Shown here in pieces: positions 43,470 to 59,155 of a DNA stretch of 64,000 nt. Source of the stretch: Methylomonas koyamae (GTDB lineage Bacteria > Pseudomonadota > Gammaproteobacteria > Methylococcales > Methylomonadaceae); assembly GCF_006483455.1 (NCBI RefSeq), contig NZ_PPPU01000003.1, positions 1-64,000 on the forward strand. The letters are read 5' to 3'. The position numbers were made by a program, and so were the translations under genes. The notes under the pieces were generated by a model. It had not been told where the DNA came from. It made no database searches and worked only from the letters and a program-made list of their open reading frames with translations. Position 1 is the first letter of the stretch; every line of letters starts with the position of its first letter.

Positions 43470-44339
43470 ATGAACGCAGCAATTAAGCCTGTTAACGCGA
43501 TGACAGTGGATGTCGAAGATTACTTTCAGGTGTCGGCATTCGAGCGGCATATAGCGCGCGACCAGTGGGATAATCTTCCGCACCGGGTCGAGCAAAATAC
43601 CAGCCGAATTCTTGATTTGTTTGAGCAGAGGCAGGTTAAAGCGACGTTTTTCACGTTGGGTTGGGTCGCCGAGCGTTATCCTGAACTGATACGGAGAATC
43701 GTTGCCGATGGCCACGAGTTAGCGTCCCACGGCTACCAGCATACTCGCGTTACTGAACAGACGCCGGACCAATTTCTAGAAGACCTGCGCCTGAGTAGAA
43801 ATATTCTGGAAGATACTTCGGGGCAGGCTGTTATCGGCTACCGAGCTGCTAGCTATTCGATAGGCGCAAACAACCTTTGGGCTTTGGAAATTTTGCAGGA
43901 AGAAGGGTTTGTTTATAGTTCCAGCATTTATCCAGTAAAGCACGATTTATACGGCATGCCAGATGCGCCGCGTTTCGCTTATCGGCCAGCCAACGCCCCA
44001 GGCTTATTGGAAATTCCGATAACTACGTTGAATCTGCTCCAGCGTAATATTCCGTGCGGTGGCGGCGGATTTTTCCGCTTATATCCCTATTCTTTCTCTA
44101 AGTGGGCTTACCGCTACATTAATAATTACGAAAAGCAGCCCGGTATATTTTATTTTCACCCGTGGGAAATCGATCCGGAGCAGCCCCGGCGAGAGGGATT
44201 ATCGTTTAAAACCCGCTTTAGGCATTACCTAAATCTCGGCAAGATGCACCATAGACTGGATAACCTGCTTAGCGATTTTGCCTGGGACACCATGCGTAAT
44301 GTATTCCTAACCCAATCAGACCGTCCCCACCAACCATGA
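43470..44339 (+). CDS. XrtA-system polysaccharide deacetylase
   Basis: A 289-residue NodB-type carbohydrate esterase. The first metal and catalytic aspartates lie in MTVDVEDYFQVSAFE, and the HxxxH metal motif in HELASHGYQHTR. Conserved YRAASYSIG and FYFHPWEIDPEQPR segments follow. No signal peptide is evident, so it probably acts in the cytoplasm or at the inner face of the membrane. It may remove acetyl groups from amino-sugar residues made through WecB. It overlaps the FemAB-like gene by four bases. Confidence 0.92.
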   Translation: MNAAIKPVNAMTVDVEDYFQVSAFERHIARDQWDNLPHRVEQNTSRILDLFEQRQVKATFFTLGWVAERYPELIRRIVADGHELASHGYQHTRVTEQTPDQFLEDLRLSRNILEDTSGQAVIGYRAASYSIGANNLWALEILQEEGFVYSSSIYPVKHDLYGMPDAPRFAYRPANAPGLLEIPITTLNLLQRNIPCGGGGFFRLYPYSFSKWAYRYINNYEKQPGIFYFHPWEIDPEQPRREGLSFKTRFRHYLNLGKMHHRLDNLLSDFAWDTMRNVFLTQSDRPHQP

Positions 44340-45355
44340 TTAAATTGCTTGAGCCCTCCCAAACAGAGCGTTGGGATAAGTTTGTTTTGGCAACTTCCGG
44401 AGGCAGTTTTTTTCATTTGGCGGGGTGGCAGCAAGTAATCAAACAGGCTTTCGGGCATCCTACTTATTACTATTATTGCGAGCGAGACGGTCAAATCACC
44501 GGGATATTGCCCTTAACCCACATTAAAAGTCCGTTGTTCGGAAATACTTTGGTTTCGAATGCGTTCTGCGTATACGGCGGTATCCTGGCGAGTGACGATC
44601 AGTCATTCACGGCCTTAAAAACGCAGGCGCAGCAATTAGCGAGGGATTTGAGGGTCGATTGTCTGGAAATGCGAAATCGGGTGCAGGCACATCCAGAGTG
44701 GCCTCATAAAGAACTTTACGTGACCTTCAGAAAAGAACTGGATCCGGACGTTGAAAAAAATCTAAACGCGATACCCAGAAAACAAAGGGCGATGGTACGT
44801 GCTGGTATCAGGGCCGGTTTGGTTAGCATTATCGACGACAATGTAGATCGCTTCTATGCCGCCTATTCGGAAAGTGTCAGAAATTTAGGCACGCCTGTTT
44901 TTTCGAAAAACTATTTTCGCATCCTAAAGGAAGTTTTCGGCAACCGTTGCGAAGTGCTGACTGTAGAGCATGAAGGGCGCTTAATTGCCAGCGTCATGAA
45001 TTTCTATTACAAGGATGAGGTTTTACCGTACTACGGCGGCGGTGTTGAAGCAGCTAGGGATCTGAAAGGTAACGATTTCATGTATTGGGAAGTGATGCGC
45101 CGTGCTGTAGAGCGAGGGTGCAAGATTTTCGATTACGGCCGCAGTAAAATCGGTACCGGATCCTTCCGTTTCAAGAAACACTGGGGTTTCGAGCCCGAGC
45201 CCTTGTTTTATGAAGTAGATTTAGTAACGGCAAAACAAATTCCGGAAATCAATCCGCTCAATCCAAAATACCAACTGTTTATAGCTGCTTGGAAAAAACT
45301 GCCGCTCCCGGTTAGTCAGTGGATCGGTCCTTGGTTAGCCAAAGACTTGGGTTGA
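44336..45355 (+). CDS. FemAB-family XrtA/PEP-CTERM-associated protein
   Basis: A 339-residue protein of the FemABX-like double-GNAT fold. Recognisable are FFHLAGWQQVIKQAFGH, LPLTHIKSPLFGNTLVSNAFCVYGG, PRKQRAMVRAGIRAGL and FDYGRSKIGTGSFRFKKHWGFE. FemAB-like enzymes transfer amino acids from aminoacyl-tRNA to peptide or lipid acceptors; for the XrtA group the acceptor is unknown. It is translationally coupled to the deacetylase gene (ATGA) and followed two bases later by a glycosyltransferase gene. Confidence 0.9.
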   Translation: MIKLLEPSQTERWDKFVLATSGGSFFHLAGWQQVIKQAFGHPTYYYYCERDGQITGILPLTHIKSPLFGNTLVSNAFCVYGGILASDDQSFTALKTQAQQLARDLRVDCLEMRNRVQAHPEWPHKELYVTFRKELDPDVEKNLNAIPRKQRAMVRAGIRAGLVSIIDDNVDRFYAAYSESVRNLGTPVFSKNYFRILKEVFGNRCEVLTVEHEGRLIASVMNFYYKDEVLPYYGGGVEAARDLKGNDFMYWEVMRRAVERGCKIFDYGRSKIGTGSFRFKKHWGFEPEPLFYEVDLVTAKQIPEINPLNPKYQLFIAAWKKLPLPVSQWIGPWLAKDLG

Positions 45356-45357
45356 GC

Positions 45358-46554
45358 ATGAAGCCCAATTTGCTGTATCTGGTTCATCGGATACCTTATC
45401 CGCCGAACAAGGGCGATAAGATCCGCTCCTTTCACTTTTTACAGGCGTTGTTGGCAGACTACGACATTTTTCTAGGTACGTTTGTAGACGACCCTGATGA
45501 TCGCCAGTACGTCGGTGCCTTGGCTGATGTGTGTAAACAAGTCTGTTGCGTCGATCTCGATCCTCGACTCGCAAAACTCAAGAGCGTGTCCGGCTTGTTG
45601 ACGAATGAAGCCTTAAGTTTACCGTATTATCGCAATGCCGAATTGCAAGCTTGGGTAGACCAGACTATCCGTGAGCATTCTATCAATCGGGCGTTGATAT
45701 TTTCTTCGCCAATGGCTCAGTTCGTGCGTAAGCATGCTGCGTTAACGGTTGTTGCCGATTTTGTTGATGTCGATTCCGACAAATGGCGGCAATACGCCCA
45801 GAGCAAGGCGTGGCCTGCTAGCTGGGTTTATCGGCGTGAGGCCCAAAAGTTGTTGGAGTTCGAGCGCGTCATGGCGGCGCGCACCGCCGCCACTTTGTTC
45901 GTGTCGGAACAAGAAGCCCGTCTATTCAGATCGTTGGCGCCCGAGGCCGCGGACAAAATTACGTACGTGAATAATGGTGTCGATATAGAGCGCTTTGATC
46001 CTGCGCTTAGTTATCAACGGCCGTTCTCTGCCGATATGAAATCGATTGTCTTTACCGGAGCCATGGATTATTGGGCTAATGTTGATGCGGTTAAATGGTT
46101 TGCGGAACAAGTGTTGCCGTTGATTTTGGCAAAAAGTCCCGCATTGCGGTTTTACATCGTCGGCTCCAAGCCGGCGCGAGAGGTTCTGCAATTGGCCGAG
46201 AATAGTGCTGCGGTGATTGTCACCGGTCGCGTCGACGATGTCAGGCCATATATAGCCTACGCCGATTTGATCGTGGCGCCGTTGCGGATTGCTCGCGGTA
46301 TTCAAAATAAGGTTTTGGAAGCCTTGGCGATGAATAAGCCAGTGGTTGTCTCTTCTGCCGGAATGGAAGGCATACCGATCACGCAGGATTTGCAGTTGGC
46401 GGTGGCCGACACCGCGGAAAATTACGCCGACCGGGTTTTGGCGTTTTTAGAAAACCAGCCGGAGCGTGGTGATTCAAACCGCCGTTTTGTGCAAGACCGT
46501 TTCGGGTGGGCTGAGAATGGCCGGCGGCTGCGCCAAATGCTGGCTGGGGAGTGA
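45358..46554 (+). CDS. XrtA-system glycosyltransferase (TIGR03087 type)
   Basis: A 398-residue family 4-type glycosyltransferase of GT-B fold. It starts with the characteristic NLLYLVHRIPYPPNKGDKIRSFHFL and has the donor-binding region APLRIARGIQNKVLEALAMNKPVV. The ATG at 45358 is used, as this block is conserved and the ATG follows the FemAB stop by two bases. The next gene overlaps almost directly (four bases after). It would add one sugar of the exopolysaccharide repeat unit. Confidence 0.92.
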   Translation: MKPNLLYLVHRIPYPPNKGDKIRSFHFLQALLADYDIFLGTFVDDPDDRQYVGALADVCKQVCCVDLDPRLAKLKSVSGLLTNEALSLPYYRNAELQAWVDQTIREHSINRALIFSSPMAQFVRKHAALTVVADFVDVDSDKWRQYAQSKAWPASWVYRREAQKLLEFERVMAARTAATLFVSEQEARLFRSLAPEAADKITYVNNGVDIERFDPALSYQRPFSADMKSIVFTGAMDYWANVDAVKWFAEQVLPLILAKSPALRFYIVGSKPAREVLQLAENSAAVIVTGRVDDVRPYIAYADLIVAPLRIARGIQNKVLEALAMNKPVVVSSAGMEGIPITQDLQLAVADTAENYADRVLAFLENQPERGDSNRRFVQDRFGWAENGRRLRQMLAGE

Positions 46555-46558
46555 GGCT

Positions 46559-47695
46559 GTGTCCGAAGCGAAGCCGCCGTTGATTGTACATATCATTTAC
46601 CGACTGGGAGTTGGTGGGCTCGAAAATGGTCTGGTTAATATTGTCAATAAATTGCCGACAACTCGTTATCGTCACGCGATCATTTGTTTGACTGAAAGCA
46701 CCGATTTCAGTCAACGTATCTGTCGGCCCGACGTCGAAATTTTTGAATTGCACAAACGGCCCGGTCAGGATTGGCGCTCCTTTCGTAGCGTTTATCGGTT
46801 ATTGAAGCAATTGCGGCCGGCAATCGTCCACACGCGCAATTTAGCGGCCATCGAATACCAAGTTTGCGCTTTGTTGGCGGGTGTGAGTTACCGCATACAT
46901 GGCGAGCATGGCTGGGATGTGTTCGATCCCGACGGGAGCAACGTCAAGTATCAGTTGTTACGCAGAATACTGGGGTCGATTATTCATCGATTTATTCCAT
47001 TGTCCCGCCATCTGGAAAGCTACCTGCGGGATAGGGTGGCAATATCGGGAAGCAAGATTACTCGTATTTGTAACGGAGTCGACACAACGGTGTTTTATCC
47101 TGGCGAGAATGAGGCTATCGTTCCGGATGGTTGCGGTTTGGCATTGCGCGATAAAGTTGTGATTGGTACCGTCGGCCGTATGCATGGGGTTAAGGACCAA
47201 ATTACCCTAGTCCGCGCTTTTATCCTAAGCTGTCAGCAATCGGCAGAATTTGCCGAACGTTGCCGATTATTTTTAATTGGCGATGGCCCGTTGAAAGCAG
47301 AAGCTATCGATTTGTTGAGTGCCTCGAATTTAGCGGATTGCGTCTGGTCGCCTGGAGAGAGAGCCGATATTCCGGTGATATTGCGTGCAATGGACATTTT
47401 TGTGTTGCCCTCGATTGCAGAAGGGATCTCAAATACGATTTTGGAAGCAATGGCTAGCGGTTTGCCGGTTATCGCAACCCGTGTCGGCGGCAATCCGGAG
47501 CTCGTGACCGATGGCGAGACAGGTCGATTGGTTCCGGCTCAGGATGTCGTAAGTCTGTCGATGGCTTTGAATGAATTGGCGTTAGATGGCGAATGCCGCC
47601 GCCGCTTTGGAGAAGGTTCCCTGAGGCGAATTCATGCTGAGTTTTCAATCGATAGTATGGTGGCTCGTTACCAGCAAGTGTATGACGGGCAATAA
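46559..47695 (+). CDS. XrtA-system glycosyltransferase (TIGR03088 type)
   Basis: A 378-residue GT-B glycosyltransferase. The opening PLIVHIIYRLGVGGLENGLVNIVNKLP and the block LPSIAEGISNTILEAMASGLPVIATRVGGNPELV identify the family. The GTG at 46559 is chosen, with GGGGAGTGAGG just upstream as ribosome-binding site; upstream reading would overlap the previous gene. In many XrtA loci the exosortase gene sits close to this pair, but here the amidotransferase gene begins only 21 bases after the stop. Confidence 0.9.
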   Translation: MSEAKPPLIVHIIYRLGVGGLENGLVNIVNKLPTTRYRHAIICLTESTDFSQRICRPDVEIFELHKRPGQDWRSFRSVYRLLKQLRPAIVHTRNLAAIEYQVCALLAGVSYRIHGEHGWDVFDPDGSNVKYQLLRRILGSIIHRFIPLSRHLESYLRDRVAISGSKITRICNGVDTTVFYPGENEAIVPDGCGLALRDKVVIGTVGRMHGVKDQITLVRAFILSCQQSAEFAERCRLFLIGDGPLKAEAIDLLSASNLADCVWSPGERADIPVILRAMDIFVLPSIAEGISNTILEAMASGLPVIATRVGGNPELVTDGETGRLVPAQDVVSLSMALNELALDGECRRRFGEGSLRRIHAEFSIDSMVARYQQVYDGQ

Positions 47696-47716
47696 TTTGC
47701 GTCGGAGAGATTTTAT

Positions 47717-49606
47717 ATGTGCGGGATAGTGGGTATTTTCGATATTCGGGGATTGAGCGAAATAGACCGCAGTCTGCTGTCGCGCATGAACGAGTCCCAG
47801 TTTCATCGCGGCCCGGATGAGGGTGGGCTACATACCGAACCTGGATTGGGATTTGGTCATCGCCGCTTATCGATTATTGATTTGTCTAGTGGGCAGCAAC
47901 CGATGCACAGCCAGGACGGAAACGTCGTATTGACGTACAACGGCGAAGTTTATAATTTTCCTGAACTACGTTTGGAACTCGAAGCTTTAGGCTACGGCTT
48001 TAGAACTCACTGTGACACCGAGGTCATTTTGTACGCCTGGCAGGCGTGGGGCGAGGCTTGTGTCGAACGCTTGCGCGGCATGTTTGCATTTGCGATTTGG
48101 GATAGACTGAAGCAAACCTTATTCCTGGCTCGTGACCGTCTTGGGGTTAAGCCCTTGTTCTATGCGGAGCTGTCAAACGGACAGTTTATTTTTGGTTCTG
48201 AACTCAAGGCATTGACGCAGCATCCGTTGTTGCCTAAGGACGTCGATGTCACGGCCATAGAGGACTATTTCGGATTTGGTTACATTCCCGATCCGAAGAC
48301 CATCTACCGGGGGGTGTACAAGTTGGAGCCCGGTTATTGCTTGACCATCAAGCGGGGCGATGCGGGTTTTCGGCCGAAGCAATATTGGGATGTAACGTTC
48401 CAGCCTGTGGGTTCGGTTGACCCCGTCCAAGCCGGCGAGGAGCTAATTGCTCGTTTGCGGGAAGCGGTTAAAATTAGGATGGTTGCCGATGTGCCTTTAG
48501 GCGCATTTTTATCCGGCGGCGTTGATTCCAGCGGCGTGGTGGCGCTGATGGCAGGTTTGTCCGCTGATCCGGTGAACACCTGTTCGATTTCTTTCGGTGA
48601 CCCTAATTTTAACGAGTCTGAATTTGCCGCTAGAGTTGCCGAGCGTTACCACACCGCCCACCGCGTAGAGCAGGTCGATCCAGATGATTTCAGTTTGATC
48701 GATCAGCTTTCCGGCTTGTACGATGAACCTTACGCCGACAGTTCCGCGTTGCCCACTTATCGGGTGTGCGAATTGGCCAAGAAGCAGGTTACCGTGGCGC
48801 TCTCCGGTGATGGCGGCGACGAGAGTCTGGCTGGATATCGCCGCTACCGCTGGCACACCTATGAAGAACGGGTCCGATCCGTATTACCGGACGCATTGCG
48901 CATGCCGTTGTTTTCCGCTCTCGGTAGGGCCTATCCGAAGTTGGATTGGGCGCCGAAAATACTTCGCGCAAAAACGACTTTGGAGGCGATCGGTCGAGAT
49001 TCGATGGCCGGTTATTTCCATAGCGTTTCCGTGTTGTCGAATGCTATGCGTACCGAATTGTTCAGCGAAAGTTTGCGGCGTGATTTGCAAGGCTATCAGG
49101 CGGTTGAGGTGTTCCATCGTTACCGGGATCGGGCTCCGCAGGATTCGTTGTCGATGGTCCAGTATTTGGATCTGAAGACTTATTTGGCTGGTGATATTTT
49201 GACCAAAGTCGATCGGGCCAGTATGGCTCACGCGTTGGAAGTGCGTGTGCCGTTGCTAGATCATAAGCTGGTGGAATGGATGGCAACTTTGCCGCCTGAA
49301 TTAAAGTTAAAAGGTCGGGAAGGTAAATATGTTTTCAAGAAAGCGTTGGAGTCATATTTGCCGTACGATGTTCTCTATCGACCTAAAATGGGTTTTTCGG
49401 TGCCGCTATGCAGTTGGTTTAGAGGTCCTTTGAAACAGCGGGTGCAAGACGCTTTGTTGGGTAGCACGCTGGCGAACACAGGTTGGTTCGATCATAGTTA
49501 TTTACAGCATATCGTTAGTCAGCACCAATCGGGGTTGCGCGACTACAGTGCCGCAATTTGGTCTCTATTGATGTTCGAGGCCTTTGCGCGGAATAATCTG
49601 ACCTGA
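47717..49606 (+). CDS. XrtA-system amidotransferase (asparagine synthase family)
   Basis: A 629-residue two-domain enzyme. Cys2 of MCGIVGIFD is the glutaminase nucleophile, and the class II glutaminase domain continues through RGPDEGG, GFGHRRLSIIDLS and YNGEVYN. The C-terminal synthetase domain has the ATP-binding SGGVDSSG near residue 265 and the conserved LSGDGGDE. It is expected to transfer ammonia from glutamine to a carboxyl group, possibly a uronic acid or peptide in the surface polymer. It is the last member of the conserved XrtA run here. Confidence 0.92.
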   Translation: MCGIVGIFDIRGLSEIDRSLLSRMNESQFHRGPDEGGLHTEPGLGFGHRRLSIIDLSSGQQPMHSQDGNVVLTYNGEVYNFPELRLELEALGYGFRTHCDTEVILYAWQAWGEACVERLRGMFAFAIWDRLKQTLFLARDRLGVKPLFYAELSNGQFIFGSELKALTQHPLLPKDVDVTAIEDYFGFGYIPDPKTIYRGVYKLEPGYCLTIKRGDAGFRPKQYWDVTFQPVGSVDPVQAGEELIARLREAVKIRMVADVPLGAFLSGGVDSSGVVALMAGLSADPVNTCSISFGDPNFNESEFAARVAERYHTAHRVEQVDPDDFSLIDQLSGLYDEPYADSSALPTYRVCELAKKQVTVALSGDGGDESLAGYRRYRWHTYEERVRSVLPDALRMPLFSALGRAYPKLDWAPKILRAKTTLEAIGRDSMAGYFHSVSVLSNAMRTELFSESLRRDLQGYQAVEVFHRYRDRAPQDSLSMVQYLDLKTYLAGDILTKVDRASMAHALEVRVPLLDHKLVEWMATLPPELKLKGREGKYVFKKALESYLPYDVLYRPKMGFSVPLCSWFRGPLKQRVQDALLGSTLANTGWFDHSYLQHIVSQHQSGLRDYSAAIWSLLMFEAFARNNLT

Positions 49607-49705
49607 TAGTTAAGAAATATCCCTTGTACAACTGTGCAATAGACACCGGAAAAGTGTTTTGCTAAAGTGTGACGTAATTCAAAGTTAAATCCAGGGTGAG
49701 CAGAA

Positions 49706-50491
49706 ATGAGCGATGCAAATAATACGTTGCCCGAACATGGCGAACAATCAACCGGCGGTGCGGCCATAGACAAAACGCGGCGGACGTTCGCAAAGGCCAG
49801 TGTCGCTGTTCCGATCGTCATGACTTTAGCCAACCGTTCGGCATGGGGCGGAGGGAAACGGAGTTGTGGCACGATTTCCGGTTTTCAATCTTACGCCAGC
49901 GCTGGGAATGTTGATCCCTCAGGCACAGGAACCTATGTGCCGCCGACTCCAAATCCACCCAGTCATTACTGTGGAGCAGGCACGGCAACAAATTGGCCGA
50001 CAAACACCACCATCAAGTGCAGACCATTCACCAAGACTCACGAAAGTGGGGCGCCTTTGGAAGGCGGCTATTGTTTGCGTGATAGATTGTTAAGCGACGG
50101 TTCGCCATCGACTTCTACAACGAATAAAGGTAAGTGGAGGGCCAGAGATACTTGGGACTCTACTGTTGGAACAAGTACTGCATCCCAATACAATACTGTG
50201 GGCCAGTTCAAGCATGCTGATGTCAAATCGTTAGAAAATGCTTCAACTTATATCACCTTGGAATACGCGCGAAGCAATGGAGTGCCGGACGACAGATCGT
50301 TGCACGATTGCATTCGAGATTTGAGTGCCGGAAGTTACACTCTGGACAACTGTTTCGCTTGGTTATTTGTAAATGCCTGCCATGGCAAAAACTTTATAGG
50401 CACTACTCCGGCCGATGTCAGAAGATGTTACACAGATTATGACGAGGCGACGGTTATCGGTTTTTGCAAACACCTTATCGGTAATTGTTAG
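49706..50491 (+). CDS. Unrecognised cysteine-rich protein with twin-arginine-like signal
   Basis: A 261-residue protein that I do not recognise. Residues 25-26 are Arg-Arg in KTRRTFAKASVAVPIVMTLA, followed by a hydrophobic stretch and RSAWG, which looks like a Tat-type signal or a leader. The mature part has ten cysteines (among them 54, 89, 105, 123 and the final residue 261) with Gly-, Ser- and Thr-rich stretches, suggesting a disulfide-stabilised exported protein. A good ribosome-binding site (AGGGTGAG) precedes it. It is followed, with overlap, by a PqqD-like protein, an HprK-related kinase and a nucleotidyltransferase, a set known only as the HPr-rel-A system. It may be the substrate of that module. 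Neither PEP-CTERM nor other sorting tail is visible. Confidence 0.6.
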   Translation: MSDANNTLPEHGEQSTGGAAIDKTRRTFAKASVAVPIVMTLANRSAWGGGKRSCGTISGFQSYASAGNVDPSGTGTYVPPTPNPPSHYCGAGTATNWPTNTTIKCRPFTKTHESGAPLEGGYCLRDRLLSDGSPSTSTTNKGKWRARDTWDSTVGTSTASQYNTVGQFKHADVKSLENASTYITLEYARSNGVPDDRSLHDCIRDLSAGSYTLDNCFAWLFVNACHGKNFIGTTPADVRRCYTDYDEATVIGFCKHLIGNC

Positions 50492-50822
50492 TATTTGGGG
50501 AAGTAATCCCGCCGTGCTAAATGGTGCTACCGTGCTGTGGCGTAGTGTTGGAAATGTGATATGCCATCAGTATGATGACGCATTGCTTGTTTTCCATGAG
50601 TCCTCTGGCGAAACCCACCTTATGGCAGGTGTTTCAAAATCTTTGCTTGAATATTGCTGTTCGGGGGCTATATTTAGTCTAGACGATTTGCTGGAGTGGG
50701 CTGGTCAAACAAATGGCGATAAAACCGACGTGTGCCAGTCGCGCGATTTGATGCTATCGACTCTCGCAGAAATTTCCAAAATTAACCTTATCGAAACAAT
50801 TCGTTGCGAGTACGTGAGTTAA
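50439..50822 (+). CDS. PqqD-like protein of the HPr-rel-A system
   Basis: A small protein whose core (IWGSNPAVLNGATVLWRSVG through LVFHESSGETHLMAGVSKSLLEYC) matches the PqqD-like fold of the HPr-rel-A set. PqqD-type domains bind leader peptides and present them to modifying enzymes. The start is uncertain: ATGs at 50439 and 50415 both lie inside the end of the cysteine-rich gene, without a clear ribosome-binding site, and no standard start exists closer to the conserved core. The overlap implies translational coupling. It in turn overlaps the kinase gene by 19 bases. Confidence 0.7.
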   Translation: MTRRRLSVFANTLSVIVSIWGSNPAVLNGATVLWRSVGNVICHQYDDALLVFHESSGETHLMAGVSKSLLEYCCSGAIFSLDDLLEWAGQTNGDKTDVCQSRDLMLSTLAEISKINLIETIRCEYVS

Positions 50823-51718
50823 GTTTACCTGCTGTTCGCGAGGCGATATCCGGGAGCGGATTGATACTTCAAATCGGTTGTTTCGTATTTTCAATTAAGT
50901 CAAGAATTAAGTGTCTGGCGGAAGCTATATCTTCTCTTTATGGAGATTACGAATTAGCGGATGACTCCTTCATTGACTTTCATGTCGACTTAAATGTCGT
51001 AAACGATGTAAGCAGACTTTTTTTTCGCAAGAAGGCTGTTTTTCTATCGGACGGCTTTGCACCGTTTGACCCGTTGCCATATCAGCATGCCCCCGCTTTA
51101 ATAGAGTGGGGTATGAACTGGTGTGTTTCCAGCCAAATCAATACATTTTTGATCATTCACGCCGCCGTGGTCGAGAAACACGGTTACGCAGTGGTAATGC
51201 CGGCGCCGCCGGGTTCGGGAAAAAGTACGTTGACGGCTAGTTTGGTACAAGAAGGGTGGCGCTTGCTGTCCGACGAATTAACCTTGGTGGATCTTCAGAC
51301 TGGTTCCGCGAGTCCTTTCCCACGTCCCATTAGTTTAAAGAATGAGTCTATCGATCTAATCAGGTGCCGCTACCCCAAAGCGGTATTCGGCCCATTAAGC
51401 TCTGACACGGTCAAAGGTAGCGTTTGCCATGTGCAACCGCCTACTGCCAGCGTCGAAATGCAACACCAATCGAGTCCCATTGGTTGGGTGGTGTTCCCTA
51501 AATACCAGCAAGGAGTTGAGGCCGAGCTTCTAAACATTGGTAAAGCCGAGACCGTTATGGAACTGGCGGATAATTCGTTCAACTACAGCATATTGGCCAC
51601 AACCGGGTTTAATGTGCTTACTGATATCGTTGACCAAGCCGATTGTTACCGTTTTCGATACAGTCGGCTTGACGATGCAATAGCGGCATTCGAGAACTTA
51701 GCCTACTCGAAAAAATGA
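50804..51718 (+). CDS. HprK-related kinase A
   Basis: A 304-residue protein distantly related to HPr kinase/phosphorylase. His119 (IHAAVVEK), the P-loop PAPPGSGKST (residues 133-142) and Asp157 in LLSDEL correspond to the nucleotide and phosphoryl-transfer site. The start is TTG at 50804, inside the preceding gene; no in-frame ATG or GTG is near. In lasso-peptide clusters related kinases phosphorylate the precursor. Here the companion genes are a PqqD-like protein and a nucleotidyltransferase, so a peptide or protein substrate is likely. HPr itself is not encoded nearby. Confidence 0.85.
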   Translation: MRVRELSLPAVREAISGSGLILQIGCFVFSIKSRIKCLAEAISSLYGDYELADDSFIDFHVDLNVVNDVSRLFFRKKAVFLSDGFAPFDPLPYQHAPALIEWGMNWCVSSQINTFLIIHAAVVEKHGYAVVMPAPPGSGKSTLTASLVQEGWRLLSDELTLVDLQTGSASPFPRPISLKNESIDLIRCRYPKAVFGPLSSDTVKGSVCHVQPPTASVEMQHQSSPIGWVVFPKYQQGVEAELLNIGKAETVMELADNSFNYSILATTGFNVLTDIVDQADCYRFRYSRLDDAIAAFENLAYSKK

Positions 51719-52782
51719 TCGAGTTTCCTCTTATCGTAAAAGTTCTTAACGGCGAGATGTCGGCGCCAGAACTGACGTTGAAACAATGGGAACTATTGAT
51801 TCGCCAAGCTCAAGCGTCAATGCTCGGGGGCGTCTTATGTTATCGGTTCGATCCTGACTCGATTCCGAGTAGAGCGTTACGTCATTTGCAATCGGCGCGG
51901 GTTCATTCCGACAAGCAAGTCAACGATTTGTTGTGGGAAATTCATCACCTAAAGAAAGTGGCTGCTGAGTTGGGCTTGCCTTTAATCTTGCTTAAGGGTG
52001 CCGCCTATGCCGCTTCTGCCTGTCCGGCTGCTAGAGGTCGTTTTTTTTCGGATATCGACTTGTTGGTACCGAAACCGGTCATCGCCGAAGCCGAGAAAAA
52101 GTTAATGGCCCATGGCTGGGTCAGTAGTTTGCATAATACGTACGATCAGTATTACTACCGGAAATGGATGCACGAAATACCGCCGTTGCGGCATGTATTT
52201 CGCGGCAGCGTTATCGATTTGCATCATAATATTCTGCCGCTCACATCCAAAGCCTGTCCTAATGCCAGTTTGCTTATCGAAGCAGCAGTCAATGTAGGCG
52301 ACAATCCGCAAATTCGTGTGTTGCAAATGCCGGACATGGTAGTCCACAGCGCGGTACATTTGTTTTACGATGGCGAATTGGATCACGGATTGCGCGATTT
52401 GGTGGACCTGGACAGTTTGCTTAGAAACAGTTCCGAGGATATTGCTATGCTTGTGGTCGAGCGGGCTTTTGAGTTGGGGCTGCAGCGGAGTATTTTTTAT
52501 GCTTTCCGGTATCTGAATATCATTCTGCAAACACCCATTTCTGCGGAAGTGCAGCAACGAAGTCAACAGGCGGCGCCGGGACGCTTCGGATTACAGATGA
52601 TGGATTTCTTGTTTCTCAGGGCGCTCATGCCGGCGCACCCGAGTTGCGGCGATCAATGGACTGGGTTAGCCCGATGGCTGTTATATGTAAGGTCCCATTG
52701 GCTGAAAATGCCCTGGTATTTGCTGTTTCCGCATTTGTCTAGAAAAGCTTGGTTTAGGCTGATGGGTAAAGAAAAACATTAG
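51715..52782 (+). CDS. Nucleotidyltransferase-family protein of the HPr-rel-A module
   Basis: A 355-residue protein of the NTP_transf_5 family. Lys94-Gly95 (LILLKG) and the metal-binding SDIDLLV (residues 112-118) form the active site of the minimal nucleotidyltransferase fold. A helical C-terminal part follows. It overlaps the kinase gene by four bases. Relatives occur in lasso-peptide clusters and in polysaccharide loci, where they may add nucleotides to a peptide or small acceptor. The substrate is unknown. Confidence 0.85.
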   Translation: MIEFPLIVKVLNGEMSAPELTLKQWELLIRQAQASMLGGVLCYRFDPDSIPSRALRHLQSARVHSDKQVNDLLWEIHHLKKVAAELGLPLILLKGAAYAASACPAARGRFFSDIDLLVPKPVIAEAEKKLMAHGWVSSLHNTYDQYYYRKWMHEIPPLRHVFRGSVIDLHHNILPLTSKACPNASLLIEAAVNVGDNPQIRVLQMPDMVVHSAVHLFYDGELDHGLRDLVDLDSLLRNSSEDIAMLVVERAFELGLQRSIFYAFRYLNIILQTPISAEVQQRSQQAAPGRFGLQMMDFLFLRALMPAHPSCGDQWTGLARWLLYVRSHWLKMPWYLLFPHLSRKAWFRLMGKEKH

Positions 52783-52834
52783 TTTGTGATGCTCTCTGGG
52801 GGTCGCAGCTAATTGCAAAACAATACTAATTGAC

Positions 52835-54049
52835 ATGAAAATTCTGCATATATTGGACCATTCCATCCCATTGCACAGCGGATATACCTTCCGCACCCGG
52901 GCCATTTTGGAGCAGCAACGTAAATTGGGCTGGGAAACTTATCACGTCACATCGGCCAAGCATCTGGGAAACACCGCAGCGTTCGAAGAGATAGACGGTT
53001 TGCAATTTTATCGCTCGGATCAGCCAACAGGCTGGCTGGCTGGGTTGCCGGTCTTAAACCAATGGGCGATAGTCGAAACTCTGTACCGGCGTCTTACCGA
53101 AATAATTCCGCAAATAAAACCGGATGTTCTGCATGCGCATTCGCCAGCCTTAAACGGTCTGGCCGCACTCCGAGCCGCACATAAGTTCCGATTACCGTTA
53201 GTCTATGAGTGCAGAGCATTTTGGGAAGATGCAGCGGTGGACCACGGTACGACTCTGGAAGGTAGTTTGCGTTATCGGTTGACCAAGTACTTGGAAACCT
53301 TTGTGTTCAAACGGGCGGATGCTGTGACCACAATATGCGAAGGCCTGCGTGGCGATATCGTTCAACGCGGGATAGCGGCAGATAAAATCACCGTCATCCC
53401 GAATGCGGTCGATATAGAAAAGTTTAATTACGGCGAACAAGCCGACTCTGAGTTGTTAAAGCAATTGGGTTTGACCGGAAAAACCATTTTGGGTTTTATC
53501 GGCTCGTTTTACGCCTACGAGGGCCTGTTGTTATTGCTGGACGCCTTGCCTGCAATCGCCCGGCAACAACCGAATGTCCGCTTGCTGTTGGTCGGAGGTG
53601 GGCCGCAACAGCCGCAAATTGTCGAAAAAATTGCAAATCTCGGCTTGCAGGAATGGGTCGTCATGCCGGGGCGGGTACCGCACGATCAGGTGCAACAGTA
53701 TTACAACTTAGTAGACTTGTTGGTTTACCCGAGAATGTCGATGCGATTGACCGATCTGGTGACGCCGCTCAAGCCATTGGAGGCTATGGCGCAAGGTCGG
53801 ATATTGGTGGCATCGGATGTCGGCGGACACCATGAGTTGATCAAAGATCGCGAAACCGGCTACCTATTTGAGGCGGGCAATGCCGATGCCTTGGCTAATA
53901 CCATATTGTCTGCGTTGCAGGATCAGGGACACTGGGATGCAATTCGGAGAGCGGGCCGAACTTACGTGGAACGAGAACGTAACTGGCAGCGAAGCGTCAG
54001 TCATTACCAAGCCGTTTACGATGGATTGCTAAGCCAACGCAATGTGTGA
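52835..54049 (+). CDS. PEP-CTERM/exosortase-system glycosyltransferase (TIGR04063 type)
   Basis: A 404-residue GT-B glycosyltransferase. It begins with ILHILDHSIPLHSGYTFRTRAI, typical of this family, and has VLHAHSPALNGLAAL, VIPNAVDIEKFNYG and the donor-site segment PLKPLEAMAQGRILVASDVGGHHELI. No good ribosome-binding site is visible before the ATG. A 52-base gap separates it from the nucleotidyltransferase gene, and its end overlaps the next glycosyltransferase by eight bases. Confidence 0.9.
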   Translation: MKILHILDHSIPLHSGYTFRTRAILEQQRKLGWETYHVTSAKHLGNTAAFEEIDGLQFYRSDQPTGWLAGLPVLNQWAIVETLYRRLTEIIPQIKPDVLHAHSPALNGLAALRAAHKFRLPLVYECRAFWEDAAVDHGTTLEGSLRYRLTKYLETFVFKRADAVTTICEGLRGDIVQRGIAADKITVIPNAVDIEKFNYGEQADSELLKQLGLTGKTILGFIGSFYAYEGLLLLLDALPAIARQQPNVRLLLVGGGPQQPQIVEKIANLGLQEWVVMPGRVPHDQVQQYYNLVDLLVYPRMSMRLTDLVTPLKPLEAMAQGRILVASDVGGHHELIKDRETGYLFEAGNADALANTILSALQDQGHWDAIRRAGRTYVERERNWQRSVSHYQAVYDGLLSQRNV

Positions 54050-55247
54050 ACGACAGCCTCGGATCGTTGTTTTTAGTTCGTTATATCCCAGTCGAGTGCG
54101 GCCGAACGCCGGCGTATTTATTCGGGAACGCATGTCCAAAGTAGCCGGGCATTGTGCGTTGGTAGTGGTTTCGCCGGTGCCTTGGTTCCCTTTGCAAGGG
54201 TTGATTCGGAAACTCCATCCCGGATACAGGCCCCAACCCGATCTAGTAGAAGAACAAAACGGCATCACCGTATATTTTCCGCGTTTTCTGGCGTTGCCGG
54301 GAATAGGGCGGGCTCTTGACGGTTTTTTCATGGCAATTTGCAGCTTGCCGGTAGTTCTAAAGCTCAAAAACAAGTCGGCGGTCAATTTGATTGACGCCCA
54401 CTTCGCCTATCCAGACGGCTATGCAGCCTCCTGGCTCGGACTATGGTTGAAATTGCCGATGACTATTACCTTGCGGGGTACCGAGTTACCGTTGTCTAAA
54501 ATTCCTGGCCGGAGGAGGCGTATGTTAAGCGCCCTAGCTCGCGCGGCCAGAGTGTTTTCTGTATCGGAGTCTTTGAAAACCCACTTGGTCGGATTGGGTG
54601 CCGATACCAACAAAATTCGGGTGGTCGGCAACGGCGTGGATACCACAAAATTTTTTCCGATCGATAAAGCCCAAGCCAGAAAAGCATTAAATATTGCCGC
54701 CGACGCCCAGGTCTTGATTTCGGTCGGCGGTTTGGTGGATAGAAAAGGTTTTCATCGCGTCCTGGAGATATTGCCTGACTTAAAAAACAATCACTCCCGT
54801 TTGTTGTACCTCATTGTTGGCGGAGCAAGTCCGGAAGGCGATATCAAGGCCCGCTTGGTCGCCCAAGTCGAAGCCTTGGGTTTGACGGCCGATGTGCGTT
54901 TTCTGGGCGCCATGGCGTCCGATCGTTTGTATCAGGTATTGTCCGCTGCCGATGTATTTGTGTTGGCGACCGCGAACGAGGGCTGGGCCAACGTCTTTCT
55001 TGAGGCCATGGCTTGCGGTCTGCCGGTTGTAACGACGGATGTCGGCGGTAACAGGGAAGTGGTCTGCAGCGGTGACCTCGGAATCGTTGTCCGGTTTGGA
55101 GACCGGCAAGCGTTGCAGGATGCGGTCGATGCGGCATTGGCTACGAATTGGAATCGGGAGGCGATTATCGAATATGCGCGACAAAATAGCTGGGACGGTC
55201 GCGTCGAAATATTATTGTCTGAATTCAATAACTTGGTGAACGTATGA
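54042..55247 (+). CDS. Glycosyltransferase, GT4-like
   Basis: A 401-residue GT-B glycosyltransferase. It shows RPNAGVFIRERM and AHFAYPDGYAASWLGLWLKLP in the acceptor domain, and VVGNGVDTTKFFP and ATANEGWANVFLEAMACGLPVVTTDVGGNREVV in the donor domain. The start overlaps the upstream gene and the end overlaps the CapK-like gene by four bases, so all three are translated together. It would add a further sugar to the polymer; linkage is not predictable. Confidence 0.9.
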   Translation: MCERQPRIVVFSSLYPSRVRPNAGVFIRERMSKVAGHCALVVVSPVPWFPLQGLIRKLHPGYRPQPDLVEEQNGITVYFPRFLALPGIGRALDGFFMAICSLPVVLKLKNKSAVNLIDAHFAYPDGYAASWLGLWLKLPMTITLRGTELPLSKIPGRRRRMLSALARAARVFSVSESLKTHLVGLGADTNKIRVVGNGVDTTKFFPIDKAQARKALNIAADAQVLISVGGLVDRKGFHRVLEILPDLKNNHSRLLYLIVGGASPEGDIKARLVAQVEALGLTADVRFLGAMASDRLYQVLSAADVFVLATANEGWANVFLEAMACGLPVVTTDVGGNREVVCSGDLGIVVRFGDRQALQDAVDAALATNWNREAIIEYARQNSWDGRVEILLSEFNNLVNV

Positions 55248-56590
55248 GTTTTTATACCTCGTTGTGCTCTTCGCTGATATTTCCGCTTCACGAGGTCCTG
55301 AAAAAACACTCGACGGTCAGGGTTCGGCGCGATATGGAACGCAGCCAATGGTGGTCTCCGCAGCAAATTAGGCAGGCTCAGCTGAAAACGCTGCGTTTAT
55401 TCTTGAGCGATGTGCAGGCCCATGTCCCGTATTACCGACAATTGTTTGCCGAGTTGGGTCTCGATGTCACTCAGATAGAGTTATCCGAGTTATCCCGGTT
55501 GCCGCTGTTGACTAAAGCGGAAATACGGCAGCATTTGCCTGAAATGTCCGCGGATGACGCAGAGGGATTGGCGAGATTTAATACTGGTGGCTCCAGTGGA
55601 GAGCCGTTGATTTTCTATATCGGCAGGCGCCGTGTCAGCCACGATGTCGCCGCCAAATGGCGCGCAACGCGCTGGTGGGGTGTGGATATTGGCGATCCCG
55701 AGGCTGTGATCTGGGGGTCGCCAATCGAGTTAGGCGCCCAAGATAAGATTCGTCTGTTACGGGACAAGTTGTTGCGGACGCATTTAATTCCCGCATTCGA
55801 AATGTCCGCGGAAAAAGTCGATGATTTTATCCGTCAGTTGCAGCAGATCAGGCCCAAAATGCTATTCGGTTACCCCTCGGCGTTGGCGCATATCGCCGGT
55901 CGCGCCGAACAAACCGGGGTGAGGTTGGATAATTTGGGCGTCAAAGTGGCCTTTGTTACTTCGGAGCGCCTGTACGATCATCAGCGGGAAAAAATCGAAA
56001 GCGTATTCGGCTGCCCGGTGGCAAACGGATACGGCGGCCGCGATGCCGGCTTCATCGCCCACCAATGTCCGCACGGCGGCATGCACATTACGGCGGAAGA
56101 TATCATCGTCGAGATCGTGGACAAAGACGGAAAGCCACTGCCCAATGGAGAATTGGGGGAAATTGTCGTTACCCATCTGGCAACCCGCGACTTTCCTTTC
56201 ATTCGTTATCGCACCGGCGACATGGGCATATTGTCCGAGAAGATGTGCGGATGTGGACGCGGTTTGCCGTTGCTGGAAGAACTCCAGGGACGCACGACCG
56301 ACTTTGTAGTTGCGCTCGACGGAACTGTGTTACACGGTTTGGCCCTGATTTATGTACTTCGTGATCTGGAAGGTGTCGAGGCTTTTAAGATTACCCAAGA
56401 AAGTTTGGAAAAAACCACGGTACAAATTGTGAAATCCGCCAGTTATCGGGATGCAGCCGAGCAAAAAATCGTCGCGGAATTTAAAAAGCGTCTCGGCCAA
56501 GCGGTTACCGTCAACATTGAATACACCGATTACATTCCCAAAGAGCGTTCCGGCAAATTTCGGTATGTGATCAGTCATGTAAAACCATAA
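55244..56590 (+). CDS. CapK/phenylacetate-CoA ligase-like adenylate-forming enzyme
   Basis: A 448-residue member of the adenylate-forming superfamily, CapK/PaaK branch. Conserved are FNTGGSSGEPLIFYIGRR (phosphate-binding loop), NGYGGRDAGFIAHQC and YRTGDMGILSEKMCGCGRGLPLLEELQGRTTDFV. CapK-like proteins occur in polysaccharide clusters, where they may activate an acyl or amino acid substituent. It is placed between a glycosyltransferase and an asparagine-synthase-like gene, consistent with a decoration step. The substrate is unknown. Confidence 0.88.
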   Translation: MSFYTSLCSSLIFPLHEVLKKHSTVRVRRDMERSQWWSPQQIRQAQLKTLRLFLSDVQAHVPYYRQLFAELGLDVTQIELSELSRLPLLTKAEIRQHLPEMSADDAEGLARFNTGGSSGEPLIFYIGRRRVSHDVAAKWRATRWWGVDIGDPEAVIWGSPIELGAQDKIRLLRDKLLRTHLIPAFEMSAEKVDDFIRQLQQIRPKMLFGYPSALAHIAGRAEQTGVRLDNLGVKVAFVTSERLYDHQREKIESVFGCPVANGYGGRDAGFIAHQCPHGGMHITAEDIIVEIVDKDGKPLPNGELGEIVVTHLATRDFPFIRYRTGDMGILSEKMCGCGRGLPLLEELQGRTTDFVVALDGTVLHGLALIYVLRDLEGVEAFKITQESLEKTTVQIVKSASYRDAAEQKIVAEFKKRLGQAVTVNIEYTDYIPKERSGKFRYVISHVKP

Positions 56591-56605
56591 TTTTCAACGG
56601 CAGCT

Positions 56606-58387
56606 ATGACAAAATTTGCGGGATGGATGGGGCCGGTTTCCGACACGGAATCGGCGGTTGCAACCCTGGCACAAACAGCGGGTGAATTGCCGGTTGTTCA
56701 GTGCGCCGGCCGCGGTTATGCGGTAGCGACTGACTCGGCCAATTACAAGCAAGTGGGCGGCGTGTTGTTGGTGGCGCTGCAATCGGCATATCCCACCGAT
56801 GCGTTGTCGAGTTTATTGGAGGCATATCTACAGCGCGGAATCGAGGCGTTACGGCGTCAGCCCGGCATCGTAAACTTGTTGCTGATTGATGAGCGGCAAC
56901 AAACGACGTTTTTAATGACCGATCCGATTGGGATTAGCCACATTTATTACGCGAGGACCAACGACGCATTGGTGTTTGGTTCCAGCGCGGATTTTGTGGT
57001 GCGTCACCCGCAGGTGAGCAATGCCATTTCGCCCCAGTCGGTTTTCGACTACCTCTACTTCAACTATTGCCCCAGCCCAAACACCATTTATCGACAGGTG
57101 ATGAAACTGGAAGGCGGGCAATGTCTCAGTTTTCATGGTGGTAAAGTCGCCATTGATCGGTATTGGCAGCCCGACTTTTTCGAAAACGACTGCGATTTAC
57201 GCCGGTCTGGCCGTGAGTTGCAACAATATCTGGTCGAAGCTGTCCGCGATAGAGTGGCAGACGACGAAAATACCGGCGCATTCCTGAGTGGCGGCCTGGA
57301 TAGCTCCAGCGTCGCCGGCGCACTAGCGCGAGTATTTCCCGGCAAGGCCAAGACTTTTTCCATGGGATTTCAAGTCGCCGGGTATGACGAAATCGAATAC
57401 GCCAATATTGCGGTTGCTGCGTTTAAAACACGTTCCCATACTTATTACGTTACGCCGGAAGATACGGTTGCTGCGGTTCCGGCAATTGCTGCCTACTACG
57501 ACGAGCCGTTCGGTAACTCGTCCGCGCTTGCGGCCTACTACTGCGCCAAACTGGCAAAAGACAACGGCGTTAACCGGCTATTGGCCGGCGACGGCGGCGA
57601 CGAAATCTTCGCCGGCAATGAACGCTATGCCAAGCAGATGTTGTTCGAAGGCTATCATCGCCTGCCGCAATTCTTAACCAGCGGAATGGAGTATGTGCTG
57701 GATGGTTTGCCGGACGCGATCGCCAGGCAAAAGATTCCATTTAAAGCCAAAAGATATATCGAACAAGCCAAGGCCGCTATGCCTGATCGTTTGCAGGATT
57801 ACAATTTTTTACATCGCCACGCGGCGGCGGATATTTTTCAAGCGGATTTCCTAACCGAGGTCGATATCTCCGCGCCGATGCAATCCTTGCGCGAAAACTA
57901 TTGGCGGCCGGCAAATGCCAGCACTCTGAATCGAATGTTGTACATGGATTGGAAATCCACTTTGCACGACAACGATCTGGTTAAGGTCAACCGGATGTGC
58001 GAAATGGCCGGTGTCGAAGTGTGTTATCCGCTGCTCGATCCACGCATCGTCGATTTATCCTGCCGCATTCCGTCGGCTGATAAGTTGCGCGGTCAAAAAC
58101 TGCGCTGGTTTTATAAACAAGCGATGGCCGATTTTCTGCCGGAAGCCATCATCAATAAATCGAAACACGGCTTTGGCTTGCCGTTCGGAATTTGGTTGAA
58201 CGACCACGAGCCGTTGAAACAAATGGCTTACCAAACCGTTCGCGATTTGGGGCGCAGGGATTTTTTTCGGCCGGAATTTCTAGAGCATGCGATCAAGATG
58301 CATCAAAGCGTTCACGCCGCGTACTATGGCGAATTGATTTGGGTACTGATGATGTTGGAACTTTGGTTTGTCGGTAAAGGCTATTAA
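56606..58387 (+). CDS. Asparagine-synthase-like protein lacking the glutaminase cysteine
   Basis: A 593-residue protein. The N-terminal domain resembles the class II glutaminase fold but starts MTKFAGW, with no Cys2, so glutamine hydrolysis is not expected. The C-terminal domain keeps the ATP-binding motif FLSGGLDSSS near residue 227, LLAGDGGDEIFAGNERYA, and NKSKHGFGLPFGIWL. Enzymes of this kind can form amide bonds by adenylating a carboxylate; lasso-peptide cyclases are one example, and polysaccharide loci carry others. It follows the CapK-like gene after 15 bases and ends the exopolysaccharide run. Its acceptor is unknown. Confidence 0.85.
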   Translation: MTKFAGWMGPVSDTESAVATLAQTAGELPVVQCAGRGYAVATDSANYKQVGGVLLVALQSAYPTDALSSLLEAYLQRGIEALRRQPGIVNLLLIDERQQTTFLMTDPIGISHIYYARTNDALVFGSSADFVVRHPQVSNAISPQSVFDYLYFNYCPSPNTIYRQVMKLEGGQCLSFHGGKVAIDRYWQPDFFENDCDLRRSGRELQQYLVEAVRDRVADDENTGAFLSGGLDSSSVAGALARVFPGKAKTFSMGFQVAGYDEIEYANIAVAAFKTRSHTYYVTPEDTVAAVPAIAAYYDEPFGNSSALAAYYCAKLAKDNGVNRLLAGDGGDEIFAGNERYAKQMLFEGYHRLPQFLTSGMEYVLDGLPDAIARQKIPFKAKRYIEQAKAAMPDRLQDYNFLHRHAAADIFQADFLTEVDISAPMQSLRENYWRPANASTLNRMLYMDWKSTLHDNDLVKVNRMCEMAGVEVCYPLLDPRIVDLSCRIPSADKLRGQKLRWFYKQAMADFLPEAIINKSKHGFGLPFGIWLNDHEPLKQMAYQTVRDLGRRDFFRPEFLEHAIKMHQSVHAAYYGELIWVLMMLELWFVGKGY

Positions 58388-58407
58388 TCCAGTTTAAACC
58401 GGAATAG

Positions 58408-58460
58408 CTGACAAAAAATGTCAGTTTCAGCCAAAAACGGCTTGTCCGCGGAAGCTGACA
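58408..58460 (+). promoter_or_regulatory. Cluster of TGTC/GACA boxes upstream of the pilin promoter
   Basis: Four TGTC or GACA (complement) tetramers occur at 58410-58413, 58419-58422, 58443-58446 and 58457-58460; the first two are arms of a perfect palindrome, CTGACA-AAAAA-TGTCAG (58408-58424). They lie 70-120 bases before the -24 element, a normal place for a sigma-54 activator, and PilR is described as binding repeated TGTC-containing sites. The link to PilR or PrsR is inferred. Confidence 0.4.
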
Positions 58461-58528
58461 AATTTAGAGATAGGCTGTGGGGTGGTTCAAAAGCTTGAAT
58501 CGCGGCTGCAGATTGCGTCATCAGTCAC

Positions 58529-58545
58529 TTGGCACGCAACTTGTA
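58529..58545 (+). promoter_or_regulatory. Sigma-54 promoter of the pilin gene
   Basis: The sequence TTGGCACGCAACTTGTA has the -24 GG at 58531-58532 and GT in place of the usual GC at -12 (58543-58544), ten bases apart. The predicted start of transcription is near 58556, leaving about 36 bases of leader with a GAAGGA ribosome-binding site (58579-58584). Pilin genes are typically sigma-54 and PilR dependent. Confidence 0.7.
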
Positions 58546-58591
58546 TTGTTTAATCCGAGTTTTAACCCCGTTAACTTTGAAGGACGTTCTT

Positions 58592-59068
58592 ATGAATAAA
58601 CAATTACAAAAAGCACAACAAGGTTTTACCTTGATCGAATTAATGATCGTGGTCGCGATCATCGGTATTTTGGCTGCAATCGCGATTCCGGCTTATCAAG
58701 ACTATACGGTTAAATCCAAAGTATCAGAAGGTCCAAGCCTAGCCTCTCCGGCGTTGACGGCGGGCGGTGTGGCGTGTAGTGAGCAAAGTTTGACAAGCGG
58801 ATTAACAAACGGTAGCGTGGGATTGCTTCCTAAAGCCAGTATCACTGGCAAGTATGTCAGTGCTGTCGAGTTTTCGGCTAGTAGCGCTACCGCGGCAACT
58901 GTCACAATTTCCTATAAAGCTATTGGTAGTTCTGTTAGCTCAAATGCAACGGTAATTTATAAGGGCGATTGTGTCGTTGGCGTGGGTATGAAGTGGTATA
59001 CGACACAGACTCCGACCTCGACCAGTTTTAGCGGCACTGTTCCGGCTAAGTATCAACCTAAATCGTAA
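58592..59068 (+). CDS. Type IV pilin
   Basis: A 158-residue type IVa major pilin-like protein. The leader [11 protein letters not shown] is cut by prepilin peptidase between Gly11 and Phe12. The mature end [24 protein letters not shown] has Glu at position 5 (Glu16), as required for assembly. The C-terminal part has two cysteines, in GGVACSEQ and KGDCVVGVG, that could form a loop disulfide. The ATG at 58592 follows a GAAGGA site with correct spacing. A sigma-54 promoter precedes it and a strong terminator follows, so it is a monocistronic, highly expressed unit. Confidence 0.93.
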
Positions 59069-59095
59069 TTGATTGTATTCGATTTGATTTGTGAA

Positions 59096-59116
59096 GGGGG
59101 CTCTGCCCCCTTTTTT
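59096..59116 (+). terminator. Rho-independent terminator of the pilin gene
   Basis: GGGGGC and GCCCCC pair perfectly around a TCT loop (59096-59110) and are followed by six T residues, 28 bases after the pilin stop. This is a canonical intrinsic terminator. Confidence 0.9.
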
Positions 59117-59155
59117 ATTTTTGAATTTGTTGTAAATTATAATCGCTGATTTTAA

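Follow-up and report, generated by a model that had tools for sequence, protein, structure and literature searches.

What does HprK-related kinase A act on, a protein that is named in the model libraries used here but is given no substrate in them? This question is raised by a stretch of 64,000 nucleotides from the methane oxidizer Methylomonas koyamae (contig NZ_PPPU01000003.1; hereafter the window), in which four neighbouring genes encode a protein with a twin-arginine leader (hereafter T), a PqqD-like recognition element (RRE) of the kind that binds the leaders of ribosomally synthesized and post-translationally modified peptides (RiPPs), an HprK-related kinase A and a nucleotidyltransferase-like protein. 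The original prediction took these genes for a module that modifies and exports T, an interpretation which is partly supported by the present analysis. Many Pseudomonadota carry the unit. HprK-related kinase A has a constant partner in T, the association being real, conserved and specific, and the kinase-A families thereby gain a constant and specific candidate substrate. With some reserve, we consider the unit to be probably a Pseudomonadota relative of the peptide pathways that combine an RRE, an HprK kinase and a nucleoside triphosphate (NTP) transferase, which would act here on a whole protein with a leader of the twin-arginine translocation (Tat) type.

The four genes are real and all of the open reading frames (ORFs) are present, overlapping or adjacent as had been described (Table 1). 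The kinase scores 362.6 bits to TIGR04352 (cut-off 200), far over the cut-off, and thus belongs to the HPr-rel-A system (NCBIfam TIGR04352 and TIGR04353), and the nucleotidyltransferase scores 158.1 bits to PF14907 (cut-off 31.2), with the PqqD-like protein falling just under its own cut-off. The HPr-rel-A models cover the kinase and a PqqD family peptide chaperone only, whereas the window unit adds T, the leader of which reads KTRRTFAKASVAVPIVMTLANRSAWG and for which searches of Pfam and NCBIfam gave no family over cut-off. The 77-nucleotide overlap between T and the PqqD-like gene is probably an artefact of choosing the first ATG, as the alignable part starts around the GTG at 50532 (96 amino acids); with this start the two genes are separated by a gap of 40 nucleotides and do not overlap. 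The overlaps of 19 nucleotides between the PqqD-like and kinase genes (the kinase being read from the TTG at 50804) and of four nucleotides between the kinase and nucleotidyltransferase genes both stand.

Table 1. Features of the four-gene unit and of its immediate neighbours in the window
Feature	Position	Strand	Remarks
T, candidate precursor/substrate	49706..50491	+	ORF; 261 amino acids; twin-arginine leader and mature domain with 10 Cys
T leader, twin arginine to predicted A-x-G cleavage site	49778..49849	+	Residues 25–48, RRTFAKASVAVPIVMTLANRSAWG; alignments A1–A3, register and motif counts
Start of T mature part, C54 GTI S58 GFQ S62	49865..49891	+	Residues 54–62; conserved Cys and two conserved Ser, candidate acceptors
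PqqD-like discrete RRE, probable 96-amino-acid form from GTG	50532..50822	+	TIGR04353 just below cut-off; longest ORF 50415–50822
HprK-related kinase A	50804..51718	+	TTG start; TIGR04352; P-loop GSGKST = residues 137–142, H119, D157, E158
Nucleotidyltransferase-like protein	51715..52782	+	PF14907; K94-G95, R109, D113-x-D115, D168
XrtA/PEP-CTERM system amidotransferase (context)	47717..49606	+	TIGR03108, 1066 bits
XrtA/PEP-CTERM system glycosyltransferase (context)	52835..54049	+	TIGR04063, 637 bits

Among 151 genomes of the family and 398 of the phylum, the kinase was found over the TIGR04352 cut-off in 51 and 61, respectively. About 5–19 kb around the kinase was taken for 109 of the 110 kinase-bearing genomes besides the window's own (G323, in which the kinase over cut-off lies on a contig fragment, was left out), and a first leader profile was built from 57 T of the resulting 110 loci (these 109 and the window). 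With a threshold of 8 bits, which, like the leader motif and the bit thresholds for exopolysaccharide (EPS) markers, was set for this analysis, this profile places T directly before the kinase and in the same orientation in 93 of the 110 loci; seven further T recognized by eye and one in the opposite orientation (L156) bring the count to 101. Three of the other nine loci stop at a contig edge (L061, L065 and L169), and no T stands beside the kinase in the fetched stretches of L085, L094, L109, L158, L159 and L165. A second set consisted of 80 named loci kept from 103 relatives, the independence of which is incomplete because L171 and L173 duplicate the records L078 and L073. The first leader profile matches T in 66 of these 80 loci, and nine more show it by eye (L193 and L215, where it follows the kinase, and L195, L197, L198, L200, L210, L212 and L249); T is doubtful in L208 and L224, L217 and L235 stop at a contig edge, and T is absent from L233 by both the leader profile and inspection by eye. 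A leader-bearing protein before the PqqD-like gene is thus a regular feature of HprK-related-kinase-A loci, as the original prediction had proposed for the neighbours of this kinase, but it is not regularly cysteine-rich.

A second leader profile (A3; 48 positions from 44 T rows) was searched in the whole genomes of the family and the phylum. In the family, it finds a match with E ≤ 4.4e-10 in 52 of the 52 genomes holding the kinase (the 51 over cut-off and G059, in which a contig end truncates the kinase), and a strong match is found in none of the 99 other family genomes, including eight with sub-cut-off kinase matches (four reach E = 0.004–0.008). As these same kinase-bearing genomes supplied 28 of the 44 rows of the profile, with up to 24 family genomes matched that contributed no row, the sensitivity of this result is partly built in; its specificity is not. 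In the phylum, 58 of the 398 genomes match with E ≤ 0.001: 55 belong to the 61 in which the kinase passes its cut-off and three to the 337 in which it does not. These three (G233, G377 and G185) match with E = 5.6e-5 or weaker and all have weak kinase-family matches, and all 51 phylum genomes with E ≤ 1.1e-5 carry the kinase. In five of the six unmatched kinase genomes a divergent T adjoins the kinase (L082, L091, L097, L142 and L143), and the other, G339, is 57% complete. For the six loci without T beside the kinase, T is found elsewhere in the genome in every case, in G364 at a distance of 164 kb. Such an unlinked T has its own adjoining PqqD-like gene in five of seven stretches (four of the six and the second T of G335) and, because the pairing is kept with the kinase elsewhere, T and PqqD form the tighter pair. 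In the window's genome T is the only significant match of the leader profile (E = 9.6e-16).

T is single-copy in the matching family genomes except for G136, which has two, lying close to each other upstream of the kinase (L134), and the second T of G335 lies elsewhere in that genome with its own PqqD-like gene (L300); several T may be served by one kinase. The unit is also plasmid-borne, as seen in Vibrio alfacsensis pVa1 (L254) and in a Sphingomonas parapaucimobilis plasmid (L255). In both plasmid records T is annotated as a hypothetical protein, the leaders of both having been checked and found present, and in the Sphingomonas record the names of the HPr-rel-A kinase and chaperone both stand beside the T-type gene.

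The twin arginine is present in all but two of 166 T (KR in L068 and L126), and the leader follows the pattern RR-x-[FL]-x-K, hydrophobic stretch, A-x-[AG] and conserved Cys. The RR-x-φ-φ motif, hydrophobic stretch and A-x-A site of a Tat signal are thus found in T, as judged from alignments A1–A3 and the counts (A1 holds 95 of 100 T, with L066, L127, L144, L146 and L166 left out; A3 holds 44), and a TatC gene is present in the window's genome. The hydrophobic stretch is of the type P-[VA]-[IV]-[LM]-[TS]-L in 94 of the 166 T, counted with the looser pattern P-x-[IVLTF]-[LMVIAFS]-[TSA]-[LFIYMCV] (P36-IVMTL in the window), the others mostly having S, G or A in the position of the Pro, and in 82 of these 94 T the A-x-[AG/S] site ends at P+12. 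Pairwise identities were compared for 164 of the 166 T (L127 and L166 were too short). Among the 78 type-I T, defined below, the identity is 0.387 in the leader versus 0.192 in the mature part, with the leader higher in 2793 of 2996 pairs; among the 46 T with a C-terminal motif it is 0.502 versus 0.226, with the leader higher in 1022 of 1035 pairs; and between the two groups it is 0.343 versus 0.104. The control MsrP, an ordinary Tat substrate taken from genomes of the same family, gives 0.405 for the leader versus 0.683 for the mature part, with the leader higher in none of 152 pairs (18 of 30 loci were parsed and the other 12 were not, and the first residue is mis-set in at least L267). Because conservation in T is higher in the leader than in the mature part and MsrP shows the reverse, a constraint beyond export acts on the T leader, for which binding of the RRE is the natural candidate.

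The mature part is more diverse. From the twin arginine onwards, only 2–5 Cys are present in 141 of 164 T and at least eight in 15 (range 2–11), and a reading of T in general as a cysteine-rich metal-binding protein was therefore rejected; the ten cysteines that had been taken as its defining trait are a trait of the window T and a few relatives and are not typical. The length of T is 129–320 amino acids, with a median of 193 (96 T of the first set). In many T the leader is followed by C-x-x-S-G-x-x-S, and these T have a helical domain in which SPGxW and LNA patterns occur. In the window T, S58 and S62 at the start of the mature part are invariant among 22 T and at least 90% conserved in 50 T, C54 close to them is at least 90% conserved in 95 T, and S58 and S62 are candidate phospho-acceptors in window-type T. 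The type-I pattern, C-x(1,4)-S-[GA] after the leader, is found in 78 of the 118 T without the C-terminal motif, [STN]C-x-x-S, which occurs in 46 of 164 T; neither pattern as written is found in 40 of 164. A predicted model of the window T (mean pLDDT 60.4) gave no match in the PDB with E ≤ 0.001 (best E 5.1), and a model of the L203 T (pLDDT 79.0) gave no PDB match (best E 5.7) and no VIA match with Z ≥ 2 among 19 chains. Its best match among viral structures, a giant-virus collagen-repeat protein, has E = 0.041, and nothing is concluded on the fold of T.

A profile of the PqqD relatives matches the RREs of lasso peptide systems (TfuB1, 6jx3, E = 1.3e-6; TbiB1, 0.022; PbaB1, 0.35), the designed-protein matches lying between these being taken as chance; the window protein scores 72.9 bits to this profile but is itself among its seeds. 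A profile of the kinase matches HPr kinase 1jb1 with E = 0.0013. All 191 aligned kinase rows carry H119, G139, K140, T142, D157, E158, G205 and N260, and K94, G95, R109, D113, D115 and D168 are invariant in 174 of 174 aligned transferase rows; judged by sequence, the active-site residues of both enzymes are intact.

On this basis, a pathway can be proposed in which the PqqD-like RRE would bind the conserved segment of the T leader (P-x-[VIL]-[LMV]-[TS]-L in about half of T) and would thereby present T to HprK-related kinase A, which would phosphorylate a serine of the mature part, S58 or S62 being the candidates in the window. The PF14907 protein would then act on phospho-T, possibly by adding a sugar, as reported for pseudomycoidin, with nucleotide sugars of the exopolysaccharide locus as donors, or else a nucleotide. 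As long as the leader is bound by the RRE it would be unusable for the Tat translocon, and T would be exported only after modification, with Tat carrying it across and signal peptidase I cutting at A-x-A/G.

The closest described relatives are the Linear Polyphosphorylated Peptides (LPP) of Bacillota, published in May 2026 (PMC13381572), so that the earlier statement that no biochemical description of such a system was known needs amending. LPP clusters lie in capsule loci and encode an RRE, an HprK kinase that phosphorylates Ser3 of the core, an NTP transferase, a peptidase resembling SipW and an exporter resembling MsbA (PMC13381572), and the combination of a discrete RRE, an HprK-like kinase and an NTP transferase is also found in the window unit. 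LPP precursors of up to 200 amino acids, with a conserved N-terminus and a variable C-terminus in capsular polysaccharide loci, further resemble the T unit (PMC13381572), and the PxVL part of the LPP leader motif YxxPxVLxHQxIxFETxxS is common to about half of T. Unlike in LPP, the families matched by the four genes and by the scanned neighbours (44336–61183) include no exporter, and the best match to the SipW-like peptidase model TIGR02228 in the window's genome, on another contig, reaches 17.1 bits against a cut-off of 51.85. The exact LPP register (cleavage at P+12 and Ser at P+15) was dropped as an argument, as Ser is found at P+15 in only 36 of 94 T and not in the window. The terms Tat, signal peptide, Proteobacteria and Pseudomonadota do not occur in the LPP paper, which was the only one found among open-licence PMC papers on HprK-related kinase A or HPr-rel-A, on exosortases together with PqqD, or on Tat leaders in RRE or RiPP pathways.

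Lasso peptides of the paeninodin/pseudomycoidin type share a PqqD-like B1 protein, a serine-phosphorylating HPr-kinase homologue and a nucleotidyltransferase with the unit (PMC8498205). In these systems HprK-type kinases phosphorylate serines of the precursors, and for pseudomycoidin the transferase reportedly attaches hexoses to this phosphate (PMC8498205); the nucleotidylation considered in the original prediction is only one option. The precursor is a short peptide in the paeninodin type, whereas it is a protein of about 130–320 amino acids here. No lasso model is over cut-off among the ten and six proteins scanned, in which no search aimed at a B2 protease was made, and two asparagine-synthase-like genes near the unit score 255.5 and 144.4 bits, below the lasso-cyclase cut-off of 525. 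A signal peptide that takes the place of a RiPP leader is found in the bufferins, MNIO-modified precursors with a Sec signal peptide as leader, for which the authors suggest that a partner protein masks the signal peptide until modification is complete (PMC12452194). The bufferins differ in using Sec rather than Tat, and an iron enzyme and cysteine chemistry rather than a kinase and a transferase; the terms Tat and twin-arginine do not occur in that paper (PMC12452194).

Several observations weigh against the pathway proposed for T. The window PqqD-like protein scores 33.6 bits to TIGR04353, just under the cut-off of 35, and PqqD was not found beside the unlinked T of L298 and L296. The Pro of the leader motif is present in just 94 of 166 T; the leader Tyr/Trp of the lasso and LPP systems is absent from T, and the window T has P-I-V-M without the rest of the LPP motif in a leader that is Tat-like. 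Curated Tat models barely match T (with E ≤ 1, TIGR01409 in six, TIGR02811 in eight and PF10518 in two of 95), and the window T is recognized by neither TIGR01409 nor PF10518 and is absent from the eight TIGR01409 places of its own genome. T with the C-terminal motif differ from type I; no one serine is shared by every T, and a single phospho-acceptor for them all was looked for and not found. Finally, the LPP transferase LppN showed no activity when tested heterologously (PMC13381572).

The small number of T matching the curated Tat models would suit a leader that serves only for docking of the RRE and kinase, its Tat-like appearance being coincidental and T leaving by Sec or another route or staying inside. 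The conservation of the leader beyond that of an ordinary Tat substrate, which indicates that another constraint acts, would agree with such a role, but the near-universal twin arginine, the hydrophobic stretch and the A-x-[AG/S] at a fixed place together make a complete Tat signal, and with a TatC gene present we regard this explanation as improbable. About as improbable, in our estimate, is that T is a plain secreted protein and that PqqD, kinase and nucleotidyltransferase modify another target, such as a small peptide, a polysaccharide or a carrier, the operon being shared for regulation. It is true that modification of T is what we infer from sequence, and that XrtA/EPS-type genes are near in 124 of 189 loci; however, the T–PqqD pairing is kept with the kinase elsewhere in five of seven stretches, the leader is conserved over the mature part, and the co-occurrence is also seen in the 65 of 189 loci without a nearby EPS-type marker.

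Less probable still is that the kinase, PqqD and nucleotidyltransferase serve quality control or regulation, with phosphorylation of cytoplasmic T timing its export and the phosphate not forming part of the final product. The RRE would then occupy the export leader in the way of Tat-substrate chaperones, of which TorD and DmsD sit on the export leaders of their substrates. The LPP peptidase also processes unphosphorylated precursor poorly (PMC13381572). For a pure phosphorylation switch, however, the nucleotidyltransferase would be superfluous, and its residues are intact in 174 of 174 rows.

With T as a constant candidate substrate, the function of kinase A becomes testable with four genes. 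If the pathway proposed for T holds, the chemistry of RRE, kinase and transferase would no longer be confined to short peptides but would also cover whole proteins that bear a Tat leader, which raises the mechanistic question of how one leader is shared by modification and export. A more far-reaching version, which we offer tentatively and hold to be rather unlikely in all its parts together, is that in a widespread Pseudomonadota pathway the Tat signal peptide doubles as a RiPP-type leader and the RRE acts as a proofreading chaperone, while the kinase and the PF14907 protein equip a serine of the folded protein with a phospho-sugar or phospho-nucleotide. T would be exported only then, often from an XrtA/exopolysaccharide locus, and could carry or anchor a glycan.

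The window unit itself sits in an XrtA/PEP-CTERM exopolysaccharide locus with a deacetylase, FemAB, glycosyltransferases (TIGR03087, TIGR03088 and TIGR04063) and an amidotransferase (TIGR03108), as well as chain-length, export and regulator genes. XrtA/EPS-type markers lie within the retrieved sequence for 75 of 109 loci and for 49 of 80, and because the unit lies near such genes in these 124 of 189 loci a cell-surface role is plausible. As no marker is found in the other 65, the exopolysaccharide link is partial, and the earlier suggestion that T may be exported onto the exopolysaccharide is weakly supported by these counts. Strict dependence on XrtA was rejected, since exosortase-A is over cut-off in 28 of the 151 family genomes versus 51 for the kinase, and in G009 and G016 the kinase occurs without an exosortase match. 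In the window's genome, an exosortase-A match over cut-off lies on contig C76 and a second just below cut-off on C6, the window being on C32.

Two further observations concern this locus. A second asparagine-synthase-like gene at 56606–58387 scores 231.7 bits to TIGR01536 (cut-off 267.1), and its product starts with MTKFAGWM, without the Cys that follows Met in the neighbour at 47717 (MCGIVG); it is possibly a glutaminase-dead amidotransferase. Two PEP-CTERM/exosortase-associated acyltransferases (TIGR03694) are encoded in the same locus, at 28372–29157 and 33208–33945.

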